Source: Sphingomonas tagetis (lineage in GTDB: Bacteria > Pseudomonadota > Alphaproteobacteria > Sphingomonadales > Sphingomonadaceae). Taken from it: 64,000 nucleotides of DNA. The notes beneath the pieces are model-generated. The model was not told where the DNA came from and ran no database searches. It was given only the letters and a program-made list of their open reading frames with translations. A program made the translations under genes and the position numbers. The stretch spans positions 62,001-126,000 of the forward strand of contig NZ_JAMLDX010000008.1 in NCBI RefSeq assembly GCF_024211275.1, in the 5' to 3' direction. Below, one piece after another: positions 10,572 to 32,901 of the stretch (positions within the stretch are counted from its first letter, which is position 1; each line of letters begins with the position of its first letter).

Positions 10572-12626
10572 ATGGATCGACGGCAGTTTCTGACGAACGC
10601 CGCTTCACTCGGAATCAGCGCCGTCTGGGCGGGGCAGTCGGCGGCGGCGCCGTCGCGGGTCGCCTGGCGAGAGGATCGTGCGCTTTATCCCCAGGGCGTC
10701 GCGTCGGGGGATCCCGACGAGCATAGCGTCGTGCTGTGGACCCGGCGGCCGTTCGATCAGGGCTCCGGCCAGACGCTGACGGTCGAGGTGGCGCTGGATG
10801 CGGCATTCCGGCGCGTCGTCGCCACGGCGCGCACACCGGTGCTCGCCGCAGCCGACTGGACCTGCCGCGCGCTCGTCGGCGGCCTCTCGCCGGCGACGGT
10901 CTATTGGTACCGCTTCACCGACGCGACCGGGGCCGGCAGCCGGATCGGGCGCACCATCACCGCCCCCCGCGCCACCGATCCGCGCCCCGTCCGCTTCGCC
11001 TTCGTGTCGTGCAACACCGTCAACGAAGGCGCGCAGAACGCCTATCGCCGGATGATCTGGGAGGACGAGCGCGCGCCGGCCGACCGCAAGCTGGGCTTCG
11101 TGCTCCATCTCGGTGACTTCATCTACGAGGTCGTCCAATATCCCGACGAGGTGAAGACGCGCTTTTCGCGAACGATCTATGACATCGGCCGCGTGCCCGA
11201 TGCGCGCAAGGTCGGCAATTTCCACGTGCCGACCAATCTGGCCGGCTATCGCTTCGTCTATCGCGCGCATATCGACGACCCCGACATTCAGGACGCGCGC
11301 GCGCATTTCCCGTTCGTGTGCATGGGCGACAATCACGAATTCTCGTGGCAGGGCTGGCAAAGCTTCACCCGGTTCGGGGGCAAGGTCGAGCCCGCCCAGC
11401 AGCTGCGCGTCGACGCCAACCAGGCATGGTGGGAATATATTCCGTCGCGCGTCCGCAAGGCCTCCGGCCCGGGACTCGATCAATTCGCGCCGCCCGCGGT
11501 GACCAATGCGCCGATCGAGCGCTTCGACGAAGACGGCTTCGGCACCGAAGCCAACAACCGCGCGGCGGTGGGCAGCATGACGGCCTATCGCGCGCTGCGT
11601 TATGGCCGGAACGTCGATCTGATCCTGACCGACCTCTTCAGCTACAAGGCGGCGGACCCGACCGACCGGCCCGAGGCGCAGGCGCTCGATTCGGGCGGCT
11701 ATCCCGTCGTTCCCGGCGAGTGGCTGGAAATCATCGACGGCGGGAAAGACTATGCGGGTGGCAACCCGCCGGCCACGATCGCGATCGGCGACAAGCGCAT
11801 CCCAAATTACCGCAAGGACGAGCCCGCCCGCACCGTGCTGGGTCGCGAGCAGAAGGCATGGCTGAAGGAGCGGCTGACGAAATCGACCGCGACCTGGAAG
11901 ATCTGGGGTCTGACCAACGGTCCACTCGTCATGCGGACCGACCCGCAGAACCTGCCCGCCGGGCTGGTGAAGGACAAATGGCCGGGCACCGGCTATGGCA
12001 ATTTCGGCGGCGTCGATTTCAGCGGCACCTTCAACGAGCGTGCCGAAATCTACGACCTGATCCGTGACCGCAAGATCCCGGGCTTCGTCACCGTCTCGGG
12101 CGATCGCCACAGCTTCTGGGCCGGATACGCCACGCCCAGGCTGCCGCCCGCAGGCTTCGATCCGGTAGGCCTGAGCTTCATCACCGGATCGATCTCCGCG
12201 CCGGGCCTTGGCGAAGCGGCCGAGTTCTTCAAGGATTCAGCCCTGCGCCCGCTCTACGTGCGAAAGCCCGAAGGCGCCCCGCCCGAACACACGATCAACC
12301 TCACCATCAAGCGCGGCGTGCGCGCGGCGCTGGAATATGCGGCGAGCGGCGACATCGAGAAGGCGCGCGCGGCGACCAATCCCGGCGTCGCACCGCATCT
12401 GGCGTTCGTCGACATGGCCGGGCACGGCTATTCGGTGGTCACTGCCGGACCGAAAACGATCGACACCGAATTCGTGTGCATCGTCCGTCCGATCGCGCGT
12501 GCGACGACCCCGGACGGCGGACCGCTGCGTTACCGGGTATCGCACCGCGCAAAGCTGTGGCGACCGGGCACGCCGCCGAAGCTCGAGCAGACAATGCTCG
12601 AAGGGGACGCAAAACTGTCGATCTGA
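10572..12626 (+). CDS. phoD: PhoD-family alkaline phosphatase/phosphodiesterase, Tat-exported
   Basis: This 684-residue enzyme is of the PhoD family, Tat-exported metallo-phosphatases that release phosphate from mono- and diesters. The twin-arginine signal is MDRRQFLTNAASLGISAVWA. The PhoD N-terminal beta domain begins with YPQGVASGDPDEHSVVLWTR. The catalytic domain shows LGDFIYEVVQYPDE, MGDNHEFSWQGW, TDLFSYK and VSGDRHSFWAGYA, which hold metal-binding Asp, Asn and His residues. The 224-bp gap before it shows no clear Pho box. It is transcribed alone and converges on the sulfur operon across a hairpin at 12692. Confidence 0.93.
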   Translation: MDRRQFLTNAASLGISAVWAGQSAAAPSRVAWREDRALYPQGVASGDPDEHSVVLWTRRPFDQGSGQTLTVEVALDAAFRRVVATARTPVLAAADWTCRALVGGLSPATVYWYRFTDATGAGSRIGRTITAPRATDPRPVRFAFVSCNTVNEGAQNAYRRMIWEDERAPADRKLGFVLHLGDFIYEVVQYPDEVKTRFSRTIYDIGRVPDARKVGNFHVPTNLAGYRFVYRAHIDDPDIQDARAHFPFVCMGDNHEFSWQGWQSFTRFGGKVEPAQQLRVDANQAWWEYIPSRVRKASGPGLDQFAPPAVTNAPIERFDEDGFGTEANNRAAVGSMTAYRALRYGRNVDLILTDLFSYKAADPTDRPEAQALDSGGYPVVPGEWLEIIDGGKDYAGGNPPATIAIGDKRIPNYRKDEPARTVLGREQKAWLKERLTKSTATWKIWGLTNGPLVMRTDPQNLPAGLVKDKWPGTGYGNFGGVDFSGTFNERAEIYDLIRDRKIPGFVTVSGDRHSFWAGYATPRLPPAGFDPVGLSFITGSISAPGLGEAAEFFKDSALRPLYVRKPEGAPPEHTINLTIKRGVRAALEYAASGDIEKARAATNPGVAPHLAFVDMAGHGYSVVTAGPKTIDTEFVCIVRPIARATTPDGGPLRYRVSHRAKLWRPGTPPKLEQTMLEGDAKLSI

Positions 12627-12691
12627 ATCCCGCTCGATCGAGGGCAGCAAGGCAAGCCATTTTCGATATTCGCCAGAATCTCGCGCGGGCG

Positions 12692-12735
12692 TGCCGCTCA
12701 TCCCGACGCGCGATGCGACGTCGGGACGAGCGGCA
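12692..12735. terminator. Bidirectional hairpin terminator between phoD and the organosulfur operon
   Basis: The arms TGCCGCTCATCCCGACG (12692-12708) and its complement at 12719-12735 pair over 17 bp with one mismatch and a ten-base loop. It lies between two convergent stop codons (12626 and 12741), so it can serve both transcripts. No strong U-tract follows on either side, so the terminator mode is uncertain. Confidence 0.7.
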
Positions 12736-12740
12736 GACTC

Positions 12741-13445
12741 TCACTCGGCGGCCACGGCCAGCACTTCGTCCTGTTGCAGCAGGCCCGACATCTTCCACTG
12801 CTGCTCCAGCACGCCGGGACCGTAGTCCTTCGCCCCGCCCAGCGTCTCGGCGAGCGCCTGGAAGCGTGCGCCTTCCTCGATCAGCACGATGGTGTTGGCG
12901 AGCGCGAGCAGTCCCTTGCGGCCCCAGGCGGTCGAGCCGCCATTGGCTTCGAGGATCGCGGGCAGGTGATGGTCTTTGGCGATCGCCTCGAGGATGAAGT
13001 TCGCCTCGCCCTGGCGCCGGTCGATATAGATTGGCAGTTCGCGCGCACGGGTCCAGCGCTGGACCGGCACGTAGCGGATCGGCAGCGACCGGTGGCTCTG
13101 CGACCAGGCGCCGAGATAGACGGTATGGACGTGGCTCACCGTCGTGATGTCGGCATGCGCGCGGAAGATCGACAAATAGCGCCCGCCGCCGAGATTTGCG
13201 CCGGGCGGCCCCTGCAGCACCTCGCCGTCGAGCGCATAGATGGTCGGCTTGAGCTCGGCATCGGGCGCGAACGGGCCGGGATAGCCGATCGACACCGCGG
13301 CCTCCTCGCCCGGCACGCGCTCGACGAAGTTGACCGTTCCGGAGGGCGCGATCGTGCCGGTGGCGGCGAGGCCGCGAAAGGCGATGCCGGCATCGCGGAC
13401 GGCGGCGGCGGCGAAATCGGTGATGGTCGAGTTGAGTTGAGTCAT
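12741..13445 (-). CDS. Class II aldolase/adducin family protein with altered zinc site
   Basis: This 234-residue protein has the fuculose-phosphate aldolase/adducin fold. RGLAATGTIAPSGTVNFVER covers the phosphate-binding region, and SHVHTVYLGAW holds the HxH zinc ligands. Where family members usually read NHG (third His ligand) this protein reads ANGGSTAWG, so one zinc ligand appears missing and aldolase activity is doubtful. The start at 13445 has AAGGAG; the longer frame upstream is antisense to nothing useful and lacks homology. It is the last gene of the 12-gene operon, 11 bp after the SsuD-like monooxygenase. A role on the carbon skeleton left by desulfonation is possible but unproven. 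Confidence 0.82.
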   Translation of the reverse strand: MTQLNSTITDFAAAAVRDAGIAFRGLAATGTIAPSGTVNFVERVPGEEAAVSIGYPGPFAPDAELKPTIYALDGEVLQGPPGANLGGGRYLSIFRAHADITTVSHVHTVYLGAWSQSHRSLPIRYVPVQRWTRARELPIYIDRRQGEANFILEAIAKDHHLPAILEANGGSTAWGRKGLLALANTIVLIEEGARFQALAETLGGAKDYGPGVLEQQWKMSGLLQQDEVLAVAAE

Positions 13446-13456
13446 GTCCGTTCTCC

Positions 13457-14623
13457 TTATTCGGCGGCTTCGAGCAGGTTCTGGGTCGTGGCGGCGGTGC
13501 GGCCGAGCAGCGGCAGCACTTCCTCGCCGATCCGCCAGGCTTCCTCGAGATGCGGGGTGCCGGCGAGGATGAAGGCGTCGGCGCCGCGCTGGATCAGCTC
13601 GTCGAGCTGCTCGGCGCATTGCTCATAGCTGCCGACGATGCCGAGCGCCGGGCCGCCGCGCAGCAGGTTGAACCCGCCCCACAGATTCTTGCCGACGATG
13701 AGGTCATCCCAGCGCTTCGCCTCGGTCGGCTTGAGCGCGGACTGGCGTGCGGCGCCGACCGAATCGGTGGGCTGACCGCGCCACTGCGCGCGCGTCGCGT
13801 CGCTGACATTCTCGAAGCCGATGCGGATGTCGCGCCACGCTTCCTCTTCGGTCGGGCGCGCGACGAGATCGACGCGGATCGCGCATTTCTGCTCGCCGCC
13901 AAGCTGCGCGGTGCGTTCCTTGACCCGCGCGAACTTGTCGGTGAGCTGGTCATAGGGTTCGAGCCAGGAGAGATAGTAATCGGCGTGCTTCGCCGCCGAT
14001 TGCAGCGCGGCCTCGGACGAGCCCGAGAACCAGATTTCAGGGACTTCCTCGCGGCTCAGCAGGTCCGAGAGCTGCTCGCCCTCCACCTGATAGAAGCGGC
14101 CGTCATAGTCGAACGGCTTGCCCGCCCACACGCCACGAAAGATGTCGAGGAACTCAGTGGTGCGGCCATAGCGGTCGTCATGGGCGAAATCGTCGCCCCA
14201 CCACAGCTGCGACGGTCCGCCGCCGCCCGTGATCACGTTGAACACCGTTCGCCCGCCGGTCGCGCGCTGCAGGCTCGCCGAGATGCGCGCGGCATGGACC
14301 GGATCGAGGAAGCCGGGCTGGAACGCGATCATGAAGCGGAACGTCTTGGTCTCGCGCGCGAGCAGCGGCGAGATCACCCAGGGATCGTCGGTATTGGGAA
14401 AGGACGGGATCAGCCCGCCGATGAACCCTGACAGTTCCGCCGCCTTCGCGATCTCCGCGAGATGGTCGATATAGCGATAGCCGTCATCCTCGCCCTGCGC
14501 GGTCAGGCCGGGCGCAACATTGCCGGGCTGGAGCGGCGACCAGTCACCCCGGTCATAGGAGCCGCGGCGGATGCTGGCGTGGCAGCCATGGGTGGGCAGG
14601 CGCCAATAGAAATCGATCGACAT
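13457..14623 (-). CDS. FMNH2-dependent monooxygenase, SsuD-like (LLM class)
   Basis: This 388-residue protein is of the bacterial luciferase-like (LLM) family, closest in form to alkanesulfonate monooxygenase SsuD, which uses FMNH2 and O2 to cleave a C-S bond and release sulfite. Visible segments are the N-terminal IDFYWRLPTHG, TFRFMIAFQPGFLDPVHAAR, GRTVFNVITGGGG and EIWFSGSSEAALQSAAKHAD. AAGGAG precedes the ATG. It needs reduced flavin from a separate reductase; the only candidate in the operon is the nitroreductase-family gene, which is frameshifted. Its place beside two DszB-like genes suggests a sulfonate or sulfone substrate. Confidence 0.9.
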   Translation of the reverse strand: MSIDFYWRLPTHGCHASIRRGSYDRGDWSPLQPGNVAPGLTAQGEDDGYRYIDHLAEIAKAAELSGFIGGLIPSFPNTDDPWVISPLLARETKTFRFMIAFQPGFLDPVHAARISASLQRATGGRTVFNVITGGGGPSQLWWGDDFAHDDRYGRTTEFLDIFRGVWAGKPFDYDGRFYQVEGEQLSDLLSREEVPEIWFSGSSEAALQSAAKHADYYLSWLEPYDQLTDKFARVKERTAQLGGEQKCAIRVDLVARPTEEEAWRDIRIGFENVSDATRAQWRGQPTDSVGAARQSALKPTEAKRWDDLIVGKNLWGGFNLLRGGPALGIVGSYEQCAEQLDELIQRGADAFILAGTPHLEEAWRIGEEVLPLLGRTAATTQNLLEAAE

Positions 14624-14635
14624 GATGAGTCTCCT

Positions 14636-15535
14636 TCAGGCGGCGGCGCGCAGGTCAGCGATGCGCGCGCGGACGCGCGGCAGCACGAACTGGCCGATGC
14701 GATAGGCTTCCTCGAGCGACGGCGTCGCCGAGAGGACGACATGGCCGACACCAATCGCATGCAGATCGGCGAGACGGTTGGCGACCGCGTCATAACTGCC
14801 GGCGATCCCCTGCCCGGCCGCGACCTCCTCGGCGGTCTCGCGCGCGGTGATCGTTGCGATGACGCCGAGCTCGACGGTGCGGCCGGCGGCGAGCGCCAGC
14901 CGGTCCAGCGTCTCGGCCCGCCCGCGCAACGCGTCGAGCGGTGCGTGCGGCAGCAGATGGACGTCGGCCAGCCGCGCCGACCGTTCGAGCGCTTCCTCGT
15001 CGTCACCGCTCAGATAGACCGGCGGAAACGGTACGTTCGCGAGCGGCGCCTGAAAACCGCCGCCCTTGACCGAGAAATACTCGCCATCATGGTCGAACGG
15101 CCGCGTGCCGTGGACGCCGCGGGCGACATGAAGAAACTCGGCGGTGCGCGCCGCATCCTCTTCGCCGCCATCGCCGGTCAGCGCCCAGCCGAGCCGGTTG
15201 TGGGTCGCGCGCTGGAAGCTCACCGCTTCCTTGGCCGCATAGACCGCCGAACCCACGGTCGCGGGAAATTCGGGCACCAGGAGCAGCCGCGGCGCGGTCC
15301 GCGCGATGGCGGCGGCAACGATCTGGCTGTCGTCGCTCTCCGGCCGGTAAGCGACAAACAGCCCGTCGAACGCGGTCGTCGCGGCGGCGCGCGCGACCTG
15401 CACATAATAGTCGTAGCGGTTGAGCGACGCCGTGCGGACATCGCGCGGCACAAAGCCTGTGGCGGGGCGGGCCGATGCCTCGCCGCGCGCGGGTTCGGCG
15501 GCGGGATCAAGCCGCCAATAGAAACGAAGGGTCAT
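14636..15535 (-). CDS. Second LLM-class flavin-dependent oxidoreductase
   Basis: This 299-residue protein is a shorter LLM-class oxidoreductase that shares the opening pattern (TLRFYWRLDP) and overall order of the neighbouring SsuD-like gene. Visible segments are FDGLFVAYRPESDDS, LLLVPEFPATVGSAVYAAKE, HNRLGWALTGDGGEEDAA, ARGVHGTRPFDHDGEYFSVK and PVYLSGDDEEALERSARLAD. It lacks roughly 90 residues of the SsuD-like partner. Its ATG overlaps the nitroreductase stop (ATGA). It may be a second oxygenase of the pathway, as DszA and DszC are in dibenzothiophene desulfurisation, but sequence does not show the substrate. Confidence 0.85.
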   Translation of the reverse strand: MTLRFYWRLDPAAEPARGEASARPATGFVPRDVRTASLNRYDYYVQVARAAATTAFDGLFVAYRPESDDSQIVAAAIARTAPRLLLVPEFPATVGSAVYAAKEAVSFQRATHNRLGWALTGDGGEEDAARTAEFLHVARGVHGTRPFDHDGEYFSVKGGGFQAPLANVPFPPVYLSGDDEEALERSARLADVHLLPHAPLDALRGRAETLDRLALAAGRTVELGVIATITARETAEEVAAGQGIAGSYDAVANRLADLHAIGVGHVVLSATPSLEEAYRIGQFVLPRVRARIADLRAAA

Positions 15536-16141
15536 GCGGCACTCCTTTGCTGGATGGTTGTGTCGCCGCCGAAGCGGCCCGTGAACACAAAGTCGGCGAG
15601 CGGGCGGCGGGTATTGGGCGCTTCCTGCGCGTGGAAATCGGCGTGCAGCGTGTCGAGATCGCCCTGCCGCCCGATCGCGACCACCGCCTCGACCGCGAAA
15701 TCTTCGGGGATCGCCAACGCCACGCGCGCCGCATCGCGGTCGAACCCGCCGATCCCGTGCGTGTGCCAGCCGAGCAGCAGCGCCTGATGCGCGAAATTGG
15801 CCCAGGCCGCGCCGGTGTCGAAGCTGTGGCTGTGATTATGCCCGGTCACACCGCGCCGCTCGACCTGCGTCGCCGAGGCGATCACGATCAACGCCGAGGC
15901 TTTGCGCCGCCCATAGCCGGTTGCGCGGCATCAACAGGTCGAGAAACACCGGCCACGCCGCATCGCCGTTCCGCGCGACGATGAATCGCCACGGCTGGAC
16001 ATTCGACGCCGACGGCGCCCAGCGCGCCGCTTCGAACGCCGTCAGCAAGTCGGCGTCGGGGATCGCCTCGCCCGAAAAGCTGCGCGGCGACCAGCGGTCG
16101 ACGAACAGCGGCGCGACGGGATGGTCGGGCGCGCGACTCAT
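15532..16141 (-). pseudogene. Nitroreductase-family flavin reductase, broken by a +1 frameshift
   Basis: Two frames together encode one nitroreductase-family protein of about 202 residues. The first (16141 to about 15905) has RWSPRSFSGEAIPDADLL and WAPSASNVQPWRFIVA, the FMN-binding motifs. The second (to 15532) has [32 protein letters not shown] and IPEDFAVEAVVAIG. They join near 15903-15911, where removing one G from GGGCGGCGC restores a continuous WARKASALIV reading. The start overlaps the ABC ATPase stop, and the end overlaps the next monooxygenase start, so the gene sits exactly in operon register. It may be a true mutation or a sequencing error. If intact it would be the likely supplier of reduced flavin to the two monooxygenases. 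Confidence 0.85.
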
Positions 16142-16998
16142 GCCCGCACCTCGCGCACCGGCAGATGGACGAGGTTCTCGGGCGCCTGAGAATCTACTTG
16201 GGGGCCGGTCAGCTCGGCGAGGATTTCGTCGCGCAGGCGATGCAGGATCGGCGAGCTGCGGTCGCGCGGATGCGGCAGATCGATATCGACGATGCGGCGG
16301 ATGCGGCCGGGCTTGGCGTCCATCACGATGACGCGGTCGCCGAGGAACACCGCTTCCTCGACGTCGTGCGTGACCATCACCATCGTCGAGCGCTGAGTGA
16401 GCCAAATGCGCTGAAGCTCGCGCTGGACATGGACCCGGGTCAGCGCATCGAGCGCGCCCAATGGCTCGTCGAGCAGCAGCAGCTTGGGTTCGGTCACCAG
16501 CGCCCGCGCGATCGCGGCGCGTTGCGCCATGCCGCCCGACAGCTGGTGCGGATAGGCCTGCTCGAACCCCGTCAGGTTCACCAGCGCGATATGCTCCGCC
16601 ACGATCCGCGCGCGCTGCGGCTTGGGGATATCGGTGTTGAGCAGCGCCAGCCCGACATTCTCCTCCAGCGTCAGCCAGGGAAACAGACGATGGTCCTGAA
16701 AGATCAGCCCGCGGTCGAGGCTGGTGCCGGCGATGCGCTTGCCGTCGAGCCGGATCTCGCCCGCATAATCGGTGTCGAGCCCGGCGATCAGCCGAACCAG
16801 CGTCGACTTGCCGCAGCCCGACGGGCCGACGATGCTGACGAACTCGCCCGCGCGGATGTCGAGATCGATCCGGTCGAGCACCGGCAGCGCCTCGCGCCCG
16901 ATGCGGAAATCCTTGGACAGGTTGGCGATCGTCAGCGCGCCGTTCGCGGGTGTGTCGATCGGGACATGCGGCGTATCGATGCGAGTGTGCAGGGTCAT
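16138..16998 (-). CDS. ABC transporter ATPase, sulfonate/nitrate/taurine type (SsuB-like)
   Basis: This is a 286-residue ABC ATPase. The Walker A is [16 protein letters not shown], the Q-loop region is [16 protein letters not shown], the signature is [16 protein letters not shown], the Walker B is [16 protein letters not shown], and the H-loop is [18 protein letters not shown]. This wording is typical of the SsuB/TauB/NrtD group. I chose the ATG at 16998 because AAGGAG lies six bases upstream; a TTG at 17013 is possible. It powers the two permeases encoded just upstream in the operon. Confidence 0.93.
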
Positions 16999-17009
16999 GG
17001 ACAGCTCCT

Positions 17010-17786
17010 TCAAGCGAGCACGGGCTGCCAGCGCAGCAGGTGGCGGCGCAGGCGGGCGAAGAGGTGGTTGATCGAAAAGCCGAGCAGGGCGGCGGCGAGG
17101 ATCGCGACGAGAATCACGTCCATCCGCTGCTGCGCCTGCGCGACGCCCATCGTCGCGCCGAGTCCGGCGGGCGCGCCGAGCAATATCTCGGTGCCGATGG
17201 TGGCGATCCAGGCGAAGGCGAGCGCCTGGGTGAAACCGGTAAGGATCAGCGGCAGCGCGGCGGGCAGCAGGACGTGGCTGAAGCGTTGCGCGGGTGAGAA
17301 GCCGAACAGACTGCCGACCTCGACATAGCGGCGCTCGACCGCGGCGACGCCCTCATAGCTGTTGAGCACCGTCGGGTAGAAGGCGGCGAGGCTGACGACG
17401 AGCAATTTGGTCGCGTCGCCATTGCCGACCCACAGCCCGATCAGCGGCAGCCAGCCGAGCAGCGGCACCTGCCGCACCGCGTGGTAGAGCGGGCCGACCA
17501 CGCGGTCGAGCGGGCGCCACATCGCCATCGCCACGCCGAGCGCGGTCCCCGCGAGGCCGCCGAGCAGCAACCCGGTCAGCGCACGCGACAGGGTCGACAG
17601 CACGTCATTGAGCAGGAAGCCGCTTACGATCTGCGCGGCGAGTGTGGCACCGACTTCCTGCAATGGCACGAAGGCGAGCGCGCGCGCGCCGCCCTGCGCC
17701 GATTGTGCCTGCCACCAGATCAGCAGCAGCACCGGCACGACCAGACCGAGCAAGATGCGCGCGGCGGGGGTGTTCAGGCGAGCCAT
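17010..17786 (-). CDS. ABC transporter permease, SsuC/TauC type (first of two)
   Basis: This 258-residue inner-membrane permease starts at 17786, one base after the stop of the other permease. It has about six membrane helices, beginning with ILLGLVVPVLLLIWWQ. The EAA-like coupling loop is in EVGSLFGFSPAQRFSHVLLP, preceded by VRQVPLLGWLPLIGLWVGNG, which is characteristic of BPD permeases for sulfonates, nitrate and taurine. Two different permease genes suggest a heterodimeric channel, unlike the homodimer of classic SsuABC. Confidence 0.92.
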   Translation of the reverse strand: MARLNTPAARILLGLVVPVLLLIWWQAQSAQGGARALAFVPLQEVGATLAAQIVSGFLLNDVLSTLSRALTGLLLGGLAGTALGVAMAMWRPLDRVVGPLYHAVRQVPLLGWLPLIGLWVGNGDATKLLVVSLAAFYPTVLNSYEGVAAVERRYVEVGSLFGFSPAQRFSHVLLPAALPLILTGFTQALAFAWIATIGTEILLGAPAGLGATMGVAQAQQRMDVILVAILAAALLGFSINHLFARLRRHLLRWQPVLA

Positions 17787-17787
17787 G

Positions 17788-18537
17788 TCAGGCCTCCTTC
17801 CAGCGGGCGAAGCGGCGCTCGACGAGCTTGACCGAGCGGTCGAGCCCGAAGCCGACCAGACCGCTGACGAACACGCCAGCCAGCACCACATCGATGCGGA
17901 ACATCTGGCGGCCCATCTCCATCATCTGGCCGATGCCGCTGTCCGCCGCGAGCAGCTCGCACGCGACCAGCACCAGCCAGCCGCGCGTCAGGCCCAGCCG
18001 TAGCCCGGTCAGCACCGGCGGCACCGCAGCGGGCAACAGAATGCGCGTGATGAACGGCAGCGGCGGCGTGCGGTAGAGCCGCGCGACCTCGAACCAGGCT
18101 TTCGGGATGCCCTTCACCCCGTCGAACGTCGCCAGCGCGACCGGAAAGAACACCGCGACCGCGACGACGACGATCTTGAACCGCTCCTCGATGCCGAGCA
18201 GCAGCACCAGCATCGGGATGAAGGCGAGCACCGGCACCTGCCGCACCGCCTGGAACACCGGCGCGAACAGCGTCTCGAACAGCTTCGACAGCGCCATCGC
18301 GGCACCGAACGCCAGCCCGATTGCGGCGCCCGTCAGGAACCCGAAGACGAGCCGGAACAGGCTGGTGCCGAGGTGATCGCCCAGCTCGCCGTCCTGCCAC
18401 AGCCGGGCGAGCGTCGCGGCGACCTCGCTCGGCGGCACCAGCACCTGCGCCGGGAAGACACCGCTGGCCGACGCAAGCTGCCAGGCGAGCAGCAATGCCA
18501 GCAGCGGCGCGATGCCCTGAGCGAAGCGACGGATCAT
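17788..18537 (-). CDS. ABC transporter permease, SsuC/TauC type (second of two)
   Basis: This 249-residue permease starts at 18537 with an ATGA overlap on the MFS gene. It has PLLALLLAWQLASASGVFP as first helix, VRQVPVLAFIPMLVLLLGI, and the coupling loop WFEVARLYRTPPLPFITRIL. It is a paralogue of the permease downstream, with the same domain order. Longer open frames that extend upstream run antisense to or across the MFS gene and were rejected. Confidence 0.92.
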   Translation of the reverse strand: MIRRFAQGIAPLLALLLAWQLASASGVFPAQVLVPPSEVAATLARLWQDGELGDHLGTSLFRLVFGFLTGAAIGLAFGAAMALSKLFETLFAPVFQAVRQVPVLAFIPMLVLLLGIEERFKIVVVAVAVFFPVALATFDGVKGIPKAWFEVARLYRTPPLPFITRILLPAAVPPVLTGLRLGLTRGWLVLVACELLAADSGIGQMMEMGRQMFRIDVVLAGVFVSGLVGFGLDRSVKLVERRFARWKEA

Positions 18538-19721
18538 GGCAGGACCTCCTGCGGCGCGAGCGGCCGAGCGGTGCGGTGGCGAAGGAAGGCGAAACCGGCG
18601 GCGGCGAACAGCAGCGGCAGCCACAGCAGGAACACCGATTGCAGCGGCACCAGCTTGGTCAGCAGCCCGCCGCCCAGAGCGCCCGCCGAGGAGCCAGTCA
18701 TCGATGCGAGATTGTAGAGTCCGGCCGCCTTGCTCTTGCCGCCCGGAATGCTCGCCAGCATGCGCACATTGATCAGGTGGACGACCGCCGAAGCCGCGCT
18801 GAGCAGCACCGCGCCCGCGGCGAGCCCTGCCAGCCCATGCGCGAGGCCGACCAGCAACAGTGCGGCACCGGCGAGGCTCAACGCCACGGCGTAGGCCGCG
18901 CCGCGTCCCAGCCGTGCGACCAACGTGCCGCTCAGGAACAGGAAGGCGACCGCACTGAAGCCCTGAACCAGCAGCACGGTGATCCCGTCCTCCTTGGTCA
19001 GCGGCGGGAGCGCGGCGGCCAGCAACAGGACGAAGGTCGAAAACAGCGCCCCGGTGGCCGAGCTCAGAAACTCGACGAAGCAGCTCTCGGCGATGGCGCG
19101 GTCGCCGAGCAGCGCGCCGATCTCCGTTAGAAAGCTCGCGCTTTCCGCCGCAGCCGGATCGCGCGCGGGCAGGAAGGACAGGCTGAACAGCGCCATGACG
19201 CCGAACAGCGCCGCGACGATCCAGAAGGCCGGCGTCACCCCGGCATGGACGATCAGTAGCCCCGCCGCTGCGGGTCCAAGGATCGCCATGCCCGCCTGTT
19301 GCGACCCGCGATACCAGCCGCCGCGCGTCTCGCCATTGCCGCGCAGCCGCTCCAGGAACGAGCTGTTCATCGCGATGATGCGGAACGGAATGCAAAGCCC
19401 GATCAGCCAGCGCCCGCCGGCCAACGCGGCCCAGCCGGTCGCCAGCGGCATCGCCAGGTTGATCAGCATCGGGCCGAGACTGGCGGCGAAATAGATACCG
19501 CGCGCGCCATAGCGAGCGATGATGAAGCCCGCTGGCACCGTCACCAGCACCATGCCGATCGATTCCGCCGCACCGATCACGCCGACCTGCAACGGCGTTG
19601 CGCCCAGATCGATCGCAAACATCGTCGTGACGACCTTGCCAAGACCGATGGTGATGCCACTCACTACCGAAAGCAGCAGGAACTGCGTCATGAAGCGCCG
19701 GTCGCTGATCGCATGGGTCAT
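18534..19721 (-). CDS. MFS transporter within the organosulfur operon
   Basis: This is a 395-residue major facilitator with about 12 helices, opening RRFMTQFLLLSVVSGITIGL. GARGIYFAASLGP and RIIAMNSSFLERLRGNGETRGG occur in the N-terminal half and cytosolic loop. The start at 19721 overlaps the binding-protein stop (ATGA). Its placement between the substrate-binding protein and the permeases is unusual. Export of a desulfurised product or of sulfite is one possible role; the sequence alone does not give direction or substrate. Confidence 0.85.
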   Translation of the reverse strand: MTHAISDRRFMTQFLLLSVVSGITIGLGKVVTTMFAIDLGATPLQVGVIGAAESIGMVLVTVPAGFIIARYGARGIYFAASLGPMLINLAMPLATGWAALAGGRWLIGLCIPFRIIAMNSSFLERLRGNGETRGGWYRGSQQAGMAILGPAAAGLLIVHAGVTPAFWIVAALFGVMALFSLSFLPARDPAAAESASFLTEIGALLGDRAIAESCFVEFLSSATGALFSTFVLLLAAALPPLTKEDGITVLLVQGFSAVAFLFLSGTLVARLGRGAAYAVALSLAGAALLLVGLAHGLAGLAAGAVLLSAASAVVHLINVRMLASIPGGKSKAAGLYNLASMTGSSAGALGGGLLTKLVPLQSVFLLWLPLLFAAAGFAFLRHRTARPLAPQEVLP

Positions 19722-20815
19722 CGCGCAGCGGCCTCCGCCGTGGCGGACTGCCAATGCTGTTGCAGGTTCAGCCTTTTGAGGGCCTCGGTCGCGAACCGCC
19801 GGTCGAGCAGCTTGTCGACATCGACCTTGGTGCGGACCAGCTTCTGGTCGAACGTATAGGCCGCGGCGTCGCGATAATGCGCGACCATGAAGTCGTCATA
19901 AAGCGGCGAATAACGATCCTTCCACGCGACGCGCGGTTCGTTCAGCTCGGCCTCGACCACGCTGCGCGGGGATTCGGCGCGCGAGGTGATGTCGATCACC
20001 TCGTCACGGCGCGCGGGATCGGACGCCCAATGCTGTGCGCGGACATAGGCGTCGGCGACGAGCTGGGTCAGCTCGGGATGCCGGTCGACGAAATCGCCGC
20101 GCCCGAACAGCTCGGCGCGCATCTTCCACGATTGCGGCGCCTGCTTGGTCGACCAGATGATCCGCCCGACTTTCTTCTCGACCAGCAGATGCGCGTCGGA
20201 CAGCAGCACCACCGCATCGACATCGCCCGAAGCGAGCGCGGCGTGGCTCGCCGGGGGGTTGATGTTGAGGATGCGGAAATCGCTGAGCGTGAGCCCGTTC
20301 GCCTCGACCAGCTTGGCGAAGGGCAGCTCCCACGGCCGCCCGCGGTGGAGCGCGATGCGCTTGCCCTTGAGGTCCTTGATGCTGTTCGCGGCGACGCCGT
20401 TGCGCACGACGACATAGGCGTTCTGCCCGCGCCCGACCGGCACCACCAGCCGCAGGTCGACGCCGCCGGCAACCGCGATGATCGCGGGGAAGTCGCCATA
20501 GCTGGCGAAATCGATCCGCTTGCCCGCGAACCCCTCATTGATCACCGGGCCACCGACCGCGGTCGAGACCGGGAACCATATCAGCTTCACCCCGCGCTTG
20601 GCGAGCTCGGCCTCCAGCCAGCCCTGCTGCTGGATGATCGCGGTCTGCCCCTGATAGCGCTGCTTGCCCTCGTGCGGATAGGCGATGCTGGCGATGGTCA
20701 GCGTCGCCGGCAGCTGCCCGGCCGCGGGCTGCGCCGGACTGCGGAACTGGTACGCTAGCAACGCCCCGAGCACGAGCACCGCGCCGAGCGCGATGAAGAT
20801 GGTCTTGCGGCTCAT
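19718..20815 (-). CDS. ABC transporter substrate-binding protein, SsuA/NrtA type
   Basis: This 365-residue binding protein has an N-terminal hydrophobic segment (TIFIALGAVLVLGALLAYQF) that is a signal peptide or membrane anchor. The mature part shows IDFASYGDFPAIIAVAGGVD, RNGVAANSIKDLKGKRIALH, GDVDAVVLLSDAHLLVEK and VDRHPELTQLVADAYVRAQ, as in aliphatic sulfonate and nitrate binding proteins. Start at 20815 overlaps the stop of the DszB-like gene. Unlike the two DszB-like proteins of this operon, it carries an export signal and lacks the Cys-Pro-Val-Pro motif, so it is the genuine transporter subunit. Confidence 0.9.
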   Translation of the reverse strand: MSRKTIFIALGAVLVLGALLAYQFRSPAQPAAGQLPATLTIASIAYPHEGKQRYQGQTAIIQQQGWLEAELAKRGVKLIWFPVSTAVGGPVINEGFAGKRIDFASYGDFPAIIAVAGGVDLRLVVPVGRGQNAYVVVRNGVAANSIKDLKGKRIALHRGRPWELPFAKLVEANGLTLSDFRILNINPPASHAALASGDVDAVVLLSDAHLLVEKKVGRIIWSTKQAPQSWKMRAELFGRGDFVDRHPELTQLVADAYVRAQHWASDPARRDEVIDITSRAESPRSVVEAELNEPRVAWKDRYSPLYDDFMVAHYRDAAAYTFDQKLVRTKVDVDKLLDRRFATEALKRLNLQQHWQSATAEAAAR

Positions 20816-21852
20816 GCGGCGTCCAGCGCCTCGAGATAATCCAGCGTCTCGAACGGCCGCCGGTCGATCCAGGCGGCGACATCGACGCGCGCGGGCAGGA
20901 AGCCGCGTTCGAACAGGAAGTCGCTGAAATCCTGCAGCGCCTCGGCCGATGCGTCGTCGAGATCGGTCTTGAGCCGCTGGTGCAACGTGTCGCCGCCATA
21001 GGCTGCGCGCACGAACTGTTCGGGCGAACCAGTTTCGCGCGCGATATAGGCGAGCGTCTCGTCGGGACGTGCCTCGGCCCATTCGCCCGCCTCGACGACA
21101 TGCGCGAGCAGGCGGCGCGCGACCGCCGGGTAGCGCTCGAGCGTCGCCGCATCGACCGTCAGCGGGCGCGGCGCGCCGTTGTTGACGCGGATCCTGGGAT
21201 CGAGGTGGAAGCCGGTGTCGATGACGACATGCGCGCCGGCGAGCAGGGCATATTCATGCCCGAGCGAACCCTTGACGTGGATCGCATCGACCTCGCCGCG
21301 CACCAGCGCGTGGAACTCGGCGGCATAGAGCGGGCGACCACCCCAATTGCCGCGAGCAACCAGCTCGAAGCCGTCGGGATCGGTGGCGTCGACATCGACC
21401 CACTCGACTTCGTCCTCACCGACCCCGCCGAGCGACAGCCCGGCGAGCAGCGCGCGCAACGCGGTGGCGCGGAAGATGTCGATCTTCTGGCTCGCCCGGC
21501 GCGGCAGCGCGATCCGCTTGCCGCGCAGATCGGCGGGCGTGCGGATATCCGAGTCTGGCAACGTCAGGATCAGCTGGCTCTCGTCGACCCAGCTCAGACC
21601 GATGACACGCGTGTCCGACCCCGCCGCGCGCGCCCAGATCGCCGGCACGCTGCCGCCCTGACGGAAGCTGTGCGCGAGATGGTGGTCGTAATGACTCGCT
21701 CGGACGTCCGGGTCGGTCGTGTCCTGGATCGAGCGCACGGTGATGCCGAGCTCGGCCAGGTCGCGATCGATCACGCCCTGATTGATCGCGATGCCGAGCG
21801 GCGTCGGCACCGGGCAGCGGGTGTACCAGATCTCGTTGGGAAAAGCGGTCAT
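20812..21852 (-). CDS. DszB-like sulfinate desulfinase candidate (copy 2 of operon)
   Basis: This 346-residue protein has the substrate-binding-protein-like fold of DszB. It has no signal peptide, so it should be cytoplasmic. YTRCPVP places Cys13 where DszB has its catalytic Cys27 (in a CPVP context). In SHYDHHLAHSFRQGG, His54 and Arg64 have the ten-residue spacing of DszB His60 and Arg70, followed by the GG-x-x-P pattern. Family knowledge: DszB hydrolyses 2'-hydroxybiphenyl-2-sulfinate to hydroxybiphenyl and sulfite. The C-terminal half (GEVDAIHVKGSLGHEYALLA, NNGAPRPLTVDAATLERYPA) is closely shared with the other copy at 24241. Routine annotation would call it an ABC binding protein. AAGGAG precedes the ATG. 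The substrate is unknown. Confidence 0.8.
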   Translation of the reverse strand: MTAFPNEIWYTRCPVPTPLGIAINQGVIDRDLAELGITVRSIQDTTDPDVRASHYDHHLAHSFRQGGSVPAIWARAAGSDTRVIGLSWVDESQLILTLPDSDIRTPADLRGKRIALPRRASQKIDIFRATALRALLAGLSLGGVGEDEVEWVDVDATDPDGFELVARGNWGGRPLYAAEFHALVRGEVDAIHVKGSLGHEYALLAGAHVVIDTGFHLDPRIRVNNGAPRPLTVDAATLERYPAVARRLLAHVVEAGEWAEARPDETLAYIARETGSPEQFVRAAYGGDTLHQRLKTDLDDASAEALQDFSDFLFERGFLPARVDVAAWIDRRPFETLDYLEALDAA

Positions 21853-21864
21853 GCCTGATCTCCT

Positions 21865-24180
21865 TCAGAAGCGCGCGACGAGCGAGGCACCCCAGGTGCG
21901 CGGGTCGCCCCATTGGATGGTGTCGCCGGTGATGCCGTTGGCCGCGTTGAACTGCGGCAGCGCATGGTTGCGGTAAGTGGCGTCGAGCAGATTGTTGACG
22001 TAGACCGTGAAGGTGAAGCGGTCGTCGGGCGTGGTGTAGGCGATGCGCGCGCTCGCCAGCGTGTAGCCCGGCTGATTGAGCAGGTAGCGGTTCACCCGGT
22101 CCTGCGGCGTGATGTAGTAGAATTGGTGCGACTGGTAGCGCGCGTCGGCGCCGAGCTGAATCTTGCCTGCTTCGTCCAGATCGAACTCATAGGAGGCGCC
22201 CAGATTGAGCGTGACGTGCGGCGCCCGCACGAACTCGGCGCCGGCGAGATTAGCGCCGCCATTCACGACCTGAAGCGTGTCATACCTGGTATCGAGCAGT
22301 CCGAGCGCGGCGTTGAGCTGGAGCCCTTCGACCGGCCGCGCGGTCAGCTCGAACTCGGCGCCGTTGACATGCGCCTCGGCCGCGTTCTGGAGGTAGGACG
22401 TCGTCGTGCCGCCGACCGCGCCGGGGTTCGGCCCGACCACGTTGATCTGCACATTGTCGTACTGATAGTGGAAGGCCGTGGCATTGAAGGTCACCGCGCC
22501 GCCGAACCAGCTCGATTTGTAGCCGATCTCGAACGAATCCAGCTCTTCCGGCTCGACCACCTGCAACGCTGCGGTCAACTGCGCGGCGGTGTTGAACCCG
22601 CCCGATTTCACGCCATGCGCATATTTGAAATAAAGCAGGTGACCCGGCGCGATCTTCCACGAGGGCGTCACGTCATAGGTGAAATTGTCCCAGGTCCGCC
22701 GCAGCTGGCCCGAGAAGGTCCCCGCCCCGCCGATATTGCCGGTATAGCTGTCCCACCATTGCGCGTAGCCGCTCCACGTCGCCCCGGCCGCGGTCGCATT
22801 GGCGATACGGCGGAAGTCGAGCGTCTTGGTCTCGCGCGTGAAGCGTGCGCCGACAGTGAGGTTGAGCGTATCGGTGAGGTCGTAGCCGAGATTGGCGAAC
22901 GCGGCGCCGCTCTCGGCCTGATGGTCATAGCGCGTGCGGCTATAGGCGTTGGGCGCGGTGTCGCCGGGGCGGGCCGGCACGGCGCCGTCGGGCAGCGTCG
23001 CGGACGCCGCGTCGGAACGGATTTTCTCGTTGAAATAATAGGCGCCGAGGATCCACTTGAACGCGCCCGAGCCGTTTGAGGCGAGCCGCAACTCCTGGCT
23101 CCACTGCTTGCTGGCCGCATCGGTGTGGTTCCGCGCGATTTCCAGCGGGGTGTAGTCGCTGTCGCCGAACGATTCCGTCTCGTACCGCTCATAGCCGGTG
23201 ATCGAAGTCAGCGTCGCAGCGCCAAAGTCGAAATCGAGCTTGAGCGAGCCGCCATATTGGCTGGTGTCGCTGTTCTCGTCGGCATTGGTGTTGACCGCGT
23301 CGCGATCGACCGGCGGCGCATAGCCGTTGCGATAGACGCCGTCGGCGCGATAGCTGCCGACCGTCCAATACCCGCCGAACGTCTTGTACTTGCGGTAGTG
23401 CGCCCCGAGCAGCGCTTCGAAATTACCGCTGCGCGCAAGCAGCTGGCCGCGGATCACGCTGTCCTCGATCGCATTGTTCTTGTCGCCGCTGAACAAATTG
23501 GTGAAGCGGCCGTCACGATTCTCGATATGGCCGGAGATGCGCGCGGCGAGCGCGTCGGGCACCAGCGTGACGCCGACCCCGGCCTGGACGATCTTGTCGT
23601 CATAGCTGCCATAGTCGAGCTTGACGTAGTTCGAGTTGTCGCCAGGCGTGAAGCTCGGCTTTTTGGTCACGACCGCGATCGCGCCGCCGGTGGTGTTCTT
23701 GCCCCACAACGTGCCCTGCGGGCCGCGCAGCACCTCGACGCGTTCGAGATCGAACAGCGGCAGGCCGGTGGCGCTGGCGTTGCTGATATAGACTTCGTCG
23801 AGATAGAAGCCGACCGGGTTGGCAAGGTCGATCTGCTGCTGCCCGGCGCCGACGCCGCGGATCCACCAGCGCGGCCGGCCATGCTGCTGCGTCCCGGCGG
23901 AGGCGTTGGGCACCAGCGCCAGCACCTCATTGGCCGAGCGGCCGACACCCTGCAGCGTGAACACATCCTCGCCCAGCGCAGTGACGGCGCTCGGCACGTC
24001 CTGAATGTCCTGCTCGCGCTTGCCCGCGGTGACGACGATCTCGGTGCCCTCGGCGTCCGCCGGGTCGCTTTCGGCGACGGGCGGGTCAGCGTCCTCGGCA
24101 TAGGCCGGCAGCGCCGCGCCCAGTGCCGCGAGCGAGATGGCGATCGTCAATCCGGTCTTCTTGGTCTTCAAACGTGTCAT
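21865..24180 (-). CDS. TonB-dependent receptor of the organosulfur operon
   Basis: This is a complete 771-residue receptor. It has a Sec signal (GLTIAISLAALGAALPAYA), the TonB box-like TEIVVTAGKREQDIQDVPSA, a plug domain (LALVPNASAGTQQHGRPRWW, IRGVGAGQQQ, VEVLRGPQGTLWGKNTTGG) and a 22-strand barrel ending WGASLVARF with the terminal Phe expected for outer-membrane assembly. It lies between the two DszB-like genes, 60 bp and 12 bp from them. In the gap on its 5' side, 24200-24218 forms a 7-bp GC stem with a five-base loop. It probably carries the organosulfur substrate across the outer membrane (inference from position). Confidence 0.94.
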   Translation of the reverse strand: MTRLKTKKTGLTIAISLAALGAALPAYAEDADPPVAESDPADAEGTEIVVTAGKREQDIQDVPSAVTALGEDVFTLQGVGRSANEVLALVPNASAGTQQHGRPRWWIRGVGAGQQQIDLANPVGFYLDEVYISNASATGLPLFDLERVEVLRGPQGTLWGKNTTGGAIAVVTKKPSFTPGDNSNYVKLDYGSYDDKIVQAGVGVTLVPDALAARISGHIENRDGRFTNLFSGDKNNAIEDSVIRGQLLARSGNFEALLGAHYRKYKTFGGYWTVGSYRADGVYRNGYAPPVDRDAVNTNADENSDTSQYGGSLKLDFDFGAATLTSITGYERYETESFGDSDYTPLEIARNHTDAASKQWSQELRLASNGSGAFKWILGAYYFNEKIRSDAASATLPDGAVPARPGDTAPNAYSRTRYDHQAESGAAFANLGYDLTDTLNLTVGARFTRETKTLDFRRIANATAAGATWSGYAQWWDSYTGNIGGAGTFSGQLRRTWDNFTYDVTPSWKIAPGHLLYFKYAHGVKSGGFNTAAQLTAALQVVEPEELDSFEIGYKSSWFGGAVTFNATAFHYQYDNVQINVVGPNPGAVGGTTTSYLQNAAEAHVNGAEFELTARPVEGLQLNAALGLLDTRYDTLQVVNGGANLAGAEFVRAPHVTLNLGASYEFDLDEAGKIQLGADARYQSHQFYYITPQDRVNRYLLNQPGYTLASARIAYTTPDDRFTFTVYVNNLLDATYRNHALPQFNAANGITGDTIQWGDPRTWGASLVARF

Positions 24181-24199
24181 GTCGAAAAACGTCCCCCCG

Positions 24200-24218
24200 G
24201 CGCGGCGACGTGCCGCGC
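24200..24218. other. Intra-operon GC hairpin between first DszB-like gene and TonB receptor
   Basis: GCGCGGC-GACGT-GCCGCGC is a perfect 7-bp stem in the 60-bp gap between the two genes. It could slow transcription or protect one mRNA end and so set unequal levels of desulfinase and receptor. No U-tract follows. Chance occurrence at this GC content is possible. Confidence 0.4.
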
Positions 24219-24240
24219 GGTCATGTTCGTGTGGAAAAGA

Positions 24241-25284
24241 TCAGGCGGCCTGGCGCTCGCGCGCCTCGACCCCCGCCAGCGGGCGCGGATCGATCCAGCC
24301 GCGCGCATCGAAATCGGCCTCGAGGAAGCCGTGCTGGAACAGGAAGTCCTTGAATCGGCCAAATGCGCCGATCGCGTCGTCGCTCAGAAACGTTGCCAGC
24401 GCGCCATGCGCGTTCGCACCATAGGCTTCGCGCACCCAATCGGGCGTCGAGCCGGTCTCGCGCGCGATATAGGCGACCGTCTCGTCGGGATGCGCCGCCG
24501 CCCAGTCGCCCGCCGCGATCACGCGGGCGAGGAAACGCTCGACCAGATCGGGCCGCTGCTCGATCAGCGCGGCATCGACGGTCAGCGGACGCGGCGTGCC
24601 ATTGTTGGCGCGCACCCAGGCATCGGGATGATCGCCGAGCGAGGCGACGATATGCGCGCCGGTCAGCCGCGCGGTTTCGAGGCCGAGCGCGCCCTTGACG
24701 TAGATCGCATCGACCTCGCCGCGCACCAGCGCCAGCACTTCGGCGCGATAGCCGTGCCGCGTCCGCGCGCGGTTGCGCTCGCCGGTGGCGATGCCCTCGG
24801 TCCCGCTGCGTGCCGGGTCGGTGCTGACGGTATCGACTCGCTCGACATCGGCGAGCGACAAGCCTTCGAGTTCAAGCGCCGAGGCGAAGCCCTTGAGCGC
24901 GGTCGCACGATTGAAGTCGATCGAGATCGGGTTGACCGGCAAGCCGATGCGCCGCCCCTTCAGGTCGCGCGGGGTGCGGATGCCGAAGCCCGGCAGCGAC
25001 AGGATCGCCTGAAACTCGTCGGTCCAGGACAGGCCGATCACCTTGGTGTCCCGGCCTCGCGAGCGCGCCCAGATCGCCGGGATGCTGCCGCCCTGGCGGA
25101 ACGAGCTTGGGAGATTGTGGTCGAAGTGGCTCTCGCGGGCATTGAGGTCCGCGGTTTCCTGGATCGACTTGAGGCCGATCCCATCGACGGCGAACTCGTC
25201 GGCAAACCAGCCAAGCTGCACTGCGATGCCGAGGCCAGTCGGCACCGGGCAGCGCGTGTACCAGAGGTCGGTGATGTTGCTCAT
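24241..25284 (-). CDS. DszB-like sulfinate desulfinase candidate (copy 1, first structural gene)
   Basis: This 347-residue protein is the first full gene of the operon. It is a paralogue of the protein at 20812 and lacks a signal peptide. YTRCPVP gives Cys12; SHFDHNLPSSFRQGG gives His53 and Arg63, the same spacing as in the other copy and matching the DszB triad (Cys27, His60, Arg70) for the His-Arg distance. Other shared segments are SIPAIWARSRGRDTKVIGLS, GEVDAIYVKGALGLETARLT and NNGTPRPLTVDAALIEQRPD. AAGGAC lies about nine bases before the ATG at 25284. Two copies may handle different sulfinates, or one may act on the monooxygenase product and the other upstream; sequence does not decide. 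Confidence 0.8.
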   Translation of the reverse strand: MSNITDLWYTRCPVPTGLGIAVQLGWFADEFAVDGIGLKSIQETADLNARESHFDHNLPSSFRQGGSIPAIWARSRGRDTKVIGLSWTDEFQAILSLPGFGIRTPRDLKGRRIGLPVNPISIDFNRATALKGFASALELEGLSLADVERVDTVSTDPARSGTEGIATGERNRARTRHGYRAEVLALVRGEVDAIYVKGALGLETARLTGAHIVASLGDHPDAWVRANNGTPRPLTVDAALIEQRPDLVERFLARVIAAGDWAAAHPDETVAYIARETGSTPDWVREAYGANAHGALATFLSDDAIGAFGRFKDFLFQHGFLEADFDARGWIDPRPLAGVEARERQAA

Positions 25285-25779
25285 GAATATGTCCTTGTCG
25301 TGAGGACGAGCGACCGCCGCGGCCGAAGCGCTTGCCGCGCAACGGACCGGCACGCCGGAATGGCGCGCAGAGCGTCAGGCCGCGGACGTCAGCCCGCGAC
25401 GGTCGCCGTCAAATGATCGGATTCAGCGTTGCGTCAGCAGCGCGCCAGCAATGCCGGCGGTGGCGTGCGGGAGAGATGGATACATTGGCTCATCGTCGTT
25501 CCTTCCTGTTCGGAAACACGAGGCCGCCGGGCTCCATCGGCAACGCCGTGCGCTTTAGCAATTGGTGACGCGGCGCAATCTGCATTCCGTCAAAAACCGC
25601 GGGTCGAGATGTCGGCTGTGAGTCGCCGCACGGCGTGACCACCGCCGTGCTCAATACATATCGATTTGATGGGATTAAGGTCAATAGCTTTGGTTGGGGA
25701 CGGCAAATCCGACCTTTCCCGGCAACCGGAGGCGGCCATCCGGCGCGAACCACCGGCAGGCCCGGGGGATCGGCAAGGC
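25285..25779 (-). promoter_or_regulatory. Leader and promoter region of the organosulfur operon (495 bp)
   Basis: This gene-poor stretch separates the operon from the mreB-like gene. On the minus strand it shows a promoter-like pair TTGACC (25679-25684) and TATGTA (25655-25660) with an 18-bp spacer. Next comes an 8-bp inverted repeat GCACGGCG/CGCCGTGC (25628-25650) with a seven-base centre, then a short ORF with a strong ribosome site (25434-25493), and then small hairpins such as GACGG-CGA-CCGTC before the first desulfinase gene. The layout resembles a regulated leader. The promoter is a visual match only. Confidence 0.5.
25434..25493 (-). CDS. Short leader ORF ending in Cys (19 residues) before the organosulfur operon
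   Basis: MSQCIHLSRTPPPALLARC is preceded by AGGAAGGAAC, a better ribosome site than most genes here. It ends 149 bp before the first DszB-like gene. It holds two Cys residues, one as the last codon before the stop. Cys-containing leader peptides precede sulfur genes in other bacteria and can sense cysteine through ribosome stalling. A three-proline run is also a known stalling context. No similar ORF was seen before the other operons of this window. It is too short for homology and may be fortuitous. Confidence 0.45.
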   Translation of the reverse strand: MSQCIHLSRTPPPALLARC

Positions 25780-26832
<1,053 letters not shown>

Positions 26833-27040
26833 TCAAAAGGGCATCGTCAGCCGCAGGCAACAGCGCGCGGCGACAGGCGATGGGGTGGGCCGCCGCGCGT
26901 GGGCAAGTGGTTCGGAACGGTCAAGCGGTTAGCGGCTGGCCGAGCGGCACAAGCGTTCGGGCGATTCGCCGCCGCCGGCATTCGGCCTTAGCGGGCGATG
27001 CCCGATTCAGGCGATTGAGGCCCCTTCAGATCGTCCGCCT

Positions 27041-32856: not shown

Positions 32857-32901
32857 TTCTCTCTCCTCACTCGTCGCCATCACATCGGCGGCATATTCTC
32901 G

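Follow-up and report, generated by a model that had tools for sequence, protein, structure and literature searches.

The window analysed here is a stretch of 64,000 nucleotides from Sphingomonas tagetis (contig NZ_JAMLDX010000008.1), whose minus strand carries, from 25284 to 12741, 12 genes that nearly touch one another. Their order from 5' to 3' is desulfinase-like gene A, the gene of a TonB receptor, desulfinase-like gene B, and the genes of an SsuA-type binding protein, a major facilitator superfamily (MFS) transporter, two ATP-binding cassette (ABC) permeases, an ABC ATPase, a nitroreductase, a short luciferase-like protein (LLM-B; LLM, luciferase-like monooxygenase), LLM-A and an aldolase-fold protein. 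By their coordinates, successive genes overlap by 4 bp or are separated by gaps of 1–12 bp, the exception being the 60 bp that separate the first desulfinase gene from the TonB gene. The coordinates thus bear out the nearly overlapping 12-gene minus-strand operon of the original prediction, but not its end at 25493, which is the start of a 19-codon open reading frame (ORF) upstream; the 12 genes begin at 25284. The search for the same gene order in other sphingomonads that had been proposed with that prediction found it complete in Sphingomonas oleivorans, S. deserti and S. colocasiae (among the matches listed), and since the whole order is kept in these three named species the arrangement is more than chance and the operon is confirmed as real. 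The function that we favour for it, with somewhat better than even confidence, is that it scavenges sulfur, by way of a sulfinate, from a bulky sulfone or sulfonate. The genes are the following:

24241 to 25284, minus strand: DszB-like desulfinase candidate A, 347 amino acids (Pfam NMT1; match to DszB 2de2, E 4e-15)
21865 to 24180, minus strand: TonB-dependent outer-membrane receptor (Pfam Plug and barrel)
20812 to 21852, minus strand: DszB-like desulfinase candidate B, 346 amino acids (match to DszB 2de2, E 2e-11; aligned catalytic residues; fold)
19718 to 20815, minus strand: SsuA-type substrate-binding protein with an N-terminal hydrophobic segment (family matches; tree group apart from the desulfinases)
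18534 to 19721, minus strand: MFS transporter (Pfam MFS_1)
17788 to 18537, minus strand: ABC permease 1, sulfonate/nitrate/taurine type (family matches)
17010 to 17786, minus strand: ABC permease 2 (Pfam BPD_transp_1)
16138 to 16998, minus strand: ABC ATP-binding protein, sulfonate/nitrate/taurine type (family matches)
15532 (approximate) to 16141, minus strand: nitroreductase-family protein, candidate flavin reductase (Pfam PF00881, first half)
14636 to 15535, minus strand: short luciferase-like protein LLM-B (family matches; alignment with LLM-A)
13457 to 14623, minus strand: SsuD-type flavin monooxygenase LLM-A (family matches; MsuD and SsuD nearest among solved proteins)
12741 to 13445, minus strand: class II aldolase/adducin-fold protein with an HxH motif and Gly at the third metal-ligand position (family, model, alignment)

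Matches in Pfam and NCBIfam agree with the families originally given for the TonB receptor, the two-permease sulfonate-type ABC transporter and the MFS protein.

The favoured function turns on candidates A and B, which are 53% identical to each other. By sequence, DszB (2de2) is the best solved relative of both, ahead of solved binding proteins; the match of A to DszB is split in two pieces, of which the piece holding the catalytic residues is weak alone. The accessible part of PMC6100217 names C27, H60, S25, R70 and G73 as active-site residues of DszB. C13, H54, R64 and G67 of candidate B align with DszB C27, H60, R70 and G73, with the His-Arg stretch free of gaps and with Thr at the position of DszB Ser25, and the same active-site Cys, His, Arg and Gly are present in candidate A; the chain of a C27S mutant of DszB in the same search output differs at the aligned Cys. 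Among 41 aligned homologues, Cys13 and His54 are each kept in 38 and Arg64 in all 41, the three homologues that lack Cys (one from Rudaea, two from Burkholderia) being the same three that lack His. Paralogues with Ser for Cys and Ile for His lie at L059 (3144–4139), L063 (3218–4213) and L065 (10001–11005), and are possibly binding or partner proteins. In 25 sequences taken from the window and from ten further genomes of the family, Cys, Arg and Gly are invariant and His is present in 20, with Asp replacing it in five third paralogues.

The predicted model of candidate B (predicted local distance difference test score, pLDDT, 89.9) has DszB as its first Foldseek match (E 3.1e-21 to 4.2e-19), followed by SsuA (2.7e-18), and in fold comparison DszB scores Z 33.0 (root-mean-square deviation 3.0 over 318 residues) and 31.9, the next being SsuA at Z 25.4. 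A tree of 88 rows separates 20 binding proteins of the clusters from 68 desulfinase-like rows that include DszB, with support of 100/100, and A and B have no N-terminal hydrophobic segment, unlike the binding protein of the operon (read by eye from the translations). That A and B are plain binding proteins is rejected on the tree, and for B also on the fold. The two DszB-like desulfinase candidates of the original prediction therefore stand as candidates, on sequence and catalytic residues for both and on predicted fold for B; in the structure-based search that had been named as a refuting test, B falls with DszB ahead of plain binding proteins and keeps the residues.

For LLM-A, the nearest solved proteins are MsuD and SsuD. 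Of the SsuD active-site residues, which we take to be H11, C54, R226, H228, R297, Y331 and H333, LLM-A keeps H11, R226, R297 and H333, and C54, H228 and Y331 are replaced. Across 55 aligned LLM sequences from the cluster loci (a mixed set, some members being only ~30% identical), Asp stands for H228 in 54 and another residue for Y331 in 53; R226 and H333 are each kept in 53, the R297 position has Arg in 30 and Lys in 23, and H11 is present in 27. In LLM-A and nine close homologues H11, R226, R297 and H333 are all present. In the alignment of LLM-B with LLM-A, SsuD R226 and H333 have no counterpart and an internal segment is missing, and LLM-B is for this reason probably a non-catalytic structural partner. 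Two luciferase-like monooxygenases had been predicted; both families are matched, but only LLM-A is a likely catalyst.

The product of the last gene has a class II aldolase fold (predicted model, pLDDT 89.4), and its highest Z scores (15 to 21) are to sugar-phosphate aldolases and epimerases, with L-fuculose-1-phosphate aldolase at Z 20.8; the same fold holds the non-haem iron oxygenases NovR and TqaM as well as pyruvic oxime dioxygenase, at Z 15.7 to 17.0. Class II aldolases have three metal-binding histidines. His105, His107 and Glu166 are present in all 35 homologues compared, and in all 35 Gly stands where the third metal-binding His of the epimerase aligns, so that the aldolase-like gene of the original prediction keeps its fold but not its third histidine, and may not encode an aldolase. 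In a plasmid collection (E 1e-15) the aldolase-fold protein was found in three records, two from Burkholderia and one from Sphingobium, and both Burkholderia records carry desulfinase homologues too.

Counting this genome in every sample, B has homologues in 11 of the 298 genomes sampled from the family, in 6 of 121 from the genus and, at a stricter limit, in 7 of 398 from the phylum. In the genus sample at E 1e-20, 115 of the 121 genomes have no match and the other five have at least three each, with best identities of 46–49%. Gene neighbourhoods were compared at 79 loci, taken from the best 80 of at least 571 relatives in one scan of named genomes and thus chosen by similarity. At these loci, two or more desulfinase genes are present in 65, an SsuD-type LLM in 50, a TonB receptor in 52, ABC permeases in 51, the aldolase-fold gene in 48, an MFS gene in 36 and the nitroreductase in 13. 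The four-part core (at least two desulfinase genes, SsuD-type LLM, TonB receptor and ABC permeases) recurs at 37 of the 79 loci, in nine genera. Of 20 control stretches of 20 kb, picked at random in five genomes of the phylum, none held even two core parts; they gave one TonB match and five ABC ATPase matches, alone or with a weak dehydrogenase match. Other homologues adjoin genes of NtaA/DmoA type, of the SfnB family, for sulfate transport or of acyl-CoA dehydrogenase type, the last of which we take to be DszC-like. Sulfur-related surroundings of this kind include SfnB-family with cysteine-dioxygenase genes, sulfate ABC with NtaA/DmoA-type genes, and arylsulfatase.

A variant cluster that includes the aldolase-fold gene lies on a 1.28-Mb plasmid of Sphingobium sp. 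TomTYG65 (L171), with three desulfinase-like genes annotated as 'monooxygenase' or soxB and an NtaA/DmoA-type monooxygenase; by the probes used, all remaining genes of the window operon are present except MFS. This cluster is 8.6 kb from an arylsulfatase gene that adjoins a TonB receptor gene of its own. On the symbiotic plasmid pSymA of Sinorhizobium meliloti ml46 (L045), two DszB-like genes labelled as binding proteins enclose an acyl-CoA dehydrogenase-type gene, and an NtaA/DmoA-type monooxygenase gene lies downstream. A second sphingomonad cluster type (L034–L037 and L039) combines three desulfinase-like genes with a gene for an activator and well-matching sigma-54 sites, and its third paralogue has Asp in place of the catalytic His.

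Among the four operons of the same order, all genes except the receptor are 61–89% identical in every pair. The receptors fall into two types, one shared by the window and S. deserti (72%) and the other by S. oleivorans and S. colocasiae (80%), with only 39–42% identity across types. Set against the 61–89% of the other genes, these values indicate that the TonB receptor has been exchanged at least once within the conserved operon. As to the operon itself, its distribution in the genus sample makes gain by transfer possible; GC content is 64.5–69.0% across 8000–32000 and has no step, so that a foreign origin is not claimed from base composition.

Upstream of the first gene lie two further features:

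25560 to 25605, minus strand: conserved DNA element of ~45 bp (in 4 of 4 window-type operons; GG-N10-GC)
25434 to 25493, minus strand: 19-codon ORF with two Cys codons, a possible leader (preceded by GGAAGGA)

The ~45-bp element is single-copy in the genome at up to three mismatches and is a weak sigma-54 match, the same 16-mer in L047 being off at three of six flexible positions. The sequence of the 19-codon ORF is not conserved in the three relatives, and a role as a Cys-codon leader peptide acting as an attenuator is therefore conjectural; at roughly its place, L047 and L048 have short ORFs with Arg-Cys runs close to their ends. In the related clusters, sigma-54 sites were counted at gene starts with no matched gene just before them, a site being a match with at most one mismatch to the consensus, which we take to be TGGCAYR-N4-TTGCW. 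Of 365 probe-matched gene starts, 88 have such a site upstream, compared with 4 for the backwards pattern; the opposite-strand control gave 33 of 365, which is partly expected from divergent genes. Counted by locus, 58 of the 79 have sites upstream of genes (4 with the reversed pattern), and site density is ~40 per Mb in the cluster loci (123 in 3.06 Mb; 17 reversed) compared with 8.75 per Mb in random stretches. Genes of enhancer-binding activators are found in 27 of 94 stretches, some of them overlapping, and each of L034–L037 and L039 has an activator gene and two sites that match all or all but one of the flexible positions. RpoN is present in the genome of S. tagetis, but sigma-54 control of the window operon is not claimed, its conserved site being weak and the genome having no orthologue of the cluster activator. 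No sigma-70 promoter was found in 12000–26000, and terminators are at chance level (7 compared with 6.6). Nothing in 12000–27000 scored above the Rfam gathering score; two matches to animal microRNA families there were dismissed as far below threshold.

An MreB gene lies upstream of the operon on the same strand and a PhoD-type gene downstream on the opposite strand. Beside the MreB gene, at 27041–33774 on the minus strand, is a dimethyl sulfoxide (DMSO)-reductase-type set that consists of DmsA-like and DmsB-like subunits together with a chaperone of DmsD/TorD type, a flavoprotein resembling ferredoxin-NAD reductase and an MFS transporter; an S-oxide substrate would suit the neighbouring operon.

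One of the systems nearest to the operon is Dsz (the 4S pathway of Rhodococcus), together with bdsABC of Gordonia, in which a DszB-type desulfinase stands beside a flavin-dependent monooxygenase. DszC-type sulfide monooxygenases are acyl-CoA dehydrogenase-like, and no member of this family is found among the 12 genes nor any probe match in the three operons of the same order; DszC-type probes match at 14 of the 79 loci, many of the matches being weak (23–81% identity). The window operon thus differs from Dsz and bds in having no DszC-type sulfide oxidase, an SsuD-type monooxygenase and two desulfinases, in adding a TonB receptor, an ABC transporter and an MFS protein, and in being proteobacterial. 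The accessible part of PMC3868597 describes a Gordonia desulfinase paired with an 'alkanesulfonate monooxygenase' as DszA analogue, and bdsABC is a precedent for both proposed enzyme steps. With Ssu and Msu systems the operon shares an SsuA-type binding protein, a flavin monooxygenase of the SsuD/MsuD branch and a sulfonate-type ABC transporter; in contrast to them it has two permeases, desulfinases, a receptor and an aldolase-fold protein, a nitroreductase-family protein replaces SsuE, and LLM-A lacks the His228, Tyr331 and Cys54 of SsuD. Use of dimethyl sulfone under SfnR and of arylsulfonates through asf is already known. What is accessible of the sfn/SfnR sources (PMC8234197, PMC13352529) suggests a likeness in sulfone-to-sulfinate chemistry by an LLM monooxygenase and in the sigma-54 sites of the related clusters, but LLM-A is not SfnG, and this genome has no orthologue of the variant-cluster activator. 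The asfRABC system of Pseudomonas putida S-313, as far as the available portion of PMC4267179 goes, draws sulfur from aromatic sulfonates, as the window operon may, and also has a binding protein and an ABC-type transporter; the window operon differs in having desulfinases and no reductase/ferredoxin pair. Among the papers listed in open-access literature searches, none appeared to describe such a cluster.

Taken together, homology, fold, catalytic residues, gene order and recurrence support the interpretation of the original prediction, organosulfur import and desulfurisation, at the level of sequence-based assignment. The TonB receptor would take a bulky or scarce organosulfur compound across the outer membrane; as the operon has no sulfide oxidase, this compound is probably a sulfone or sulfonate, most likely oxidised already before import. 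The SsuA-type binding protein and the two-permease ABC transporter would bring it into the cytoplasm, where LLM-A, probably paired with LLM-B, would cut the first C-S bond and leave a sulfinate, using reduced flavin that a nitroreductase-family reductase would supply. The two DszB-like enzymes would then release sulfite from the sulfinate, and the cell could reduce this sulfite; for its entry into metabolism, a sulfite/nitrite-reductase-type protein encoded on contig C12 of the genome could be used. The aldolase-fold protein would handle a carbonyl or aromatic intermediate, and the MFS protein is probably an exporter of the sulfur-free remainder. Any control of the operon by sulfur is likewise conjectural.

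Several observations weigh against this assignment. The identity of the candidates to DszB is ~25%, the DszB branch in the tree is long, the Foldseek gap between SsuA and DszB is narrow, and the best NCBIfam model of both A and B is the SsuA family, albeit with scores of 84.9 and 101.9 bits, below its cut-off of 163.5 bits. LLM-A falls far below the NCBIfam equivalog cut-offs of both SsuD (252.2 compared with 518.2 bits) and SfnG (119.2 compared with 382.95 bits), and with these low scores, and with Asp at SsuD His228 and Thr at Tyr331, its reaction is not readable from SsuD. There is no regulator gene within the operon, and the best matches in this genome to the variant-cluster activator are 46% identical over most of the sequence and 49–50% over part of it. 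The nitroreductase, finally, is not one open frame in the window: its halves lie in different frames, and the second half matches no Pfam family, so that the predicted nitroreductase-family gene is correct as to family (PF00881) but frameshifted in this assembly. This break could mean that the operon is decaying in this strain. The same stretch is, however, open in one frame at L046, L047 and L048, and both halves are 62–75% identical to those relatives, from which the break is judged to have arisen recently or through faulty assembly. The remaining 11 genes have open frames, and because the assembly consists of 58 contigs a sequencing error is possible. Decay is accordingly considered very improbable.

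Other readings of the intact operon must account for the same genes. It might be a divergent Ssu system, in which a sulfonate yields sulfite directly through LLM-A, the DszB-like proteins doing no more than clearing away sulfinate by-products or serving a second substrate; this would suit the kinship of LLM-A with MsuD and SsuD, the sulfonate/nitrate/taurine type of the ABC parts and the counterparts of R226, R297 and H333 in the window and nine close homologues. It is nevertheless unlikely, as two or more desulfinase-like genes at 65 of 79 loci are too constant for clean-up, and the SsuD residues H228 and Y331 are replaced almost throughout the 55 sequences. Alternatively, the DszB-like proteins could share the fold but have another activity (for instance as decarboxylases or lyases of another kind) or be soluble binding proteins, with the operon serving another kind of compound. 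The fold does include binding proteins, Thi5 and 4,5-dihydroxyphthalate decarboxylase, the SsuA_fam model and the low identity to DszB point the same way, one clade lacks both Cys and His, and a third sphingomonad paralogue has Asp for His (5 of 25); but DszB exceeds the next fold by 7 to 8 Z units, its active-site Cys, His, Arg and Gly are kept, and homologues lie in sulfur gene clusters, which makes this reading quite improbable. A role in breaking down an organosulfur compound for carbon, instead of supplying sulfur, would suit the aldolase-fold and MFS proteins and an operon without a sulfur regulator. It appears highly improbable: no ring-cleavage or CoA-ligase gene is among the operon genes, and the sigma-54 sites and activator genes of the related clusters resemble SfnR control of sulfone use as presented in the accessible parts of PMC8234197 and PMC13352529.

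Sulfur scavenging by way of a sulfinate thus remains the favoured function, and the cluster's own receptor and transporter point to an unknown substrate. DszB is known chiefly from fuel-desulfurising bacteria. A wider and decidedly tentative proposal, which we hold to be rather doubtful, is that widespread proteobacterial DszB-like desulfinases, which carry annotations as ABC binding proteins or monooxygenases, form within TonB-ABC-LLM clusters a general route to sulfur from bulky natural organosulfur compounds via sulfinates, and that the aldolase-fold protein is a new non-haem iron oxygenase using two His and a carboxylate. The bottleneck of biodesulfurisation, according to the available portions of PMC12168087 and PMC6100217, is that DszB turns over slowly, and the cluster would, if the assignment is true, offer new candidate desulfinases for that use. 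Should the activity of the proteins be what fold and residues suggest, sulfinate desulfination would be a recurrent step of sulfur supply in several proteobacterial groups, its desulfinases hidden under labels such as 'ABC transporter substrate-binding protein'.

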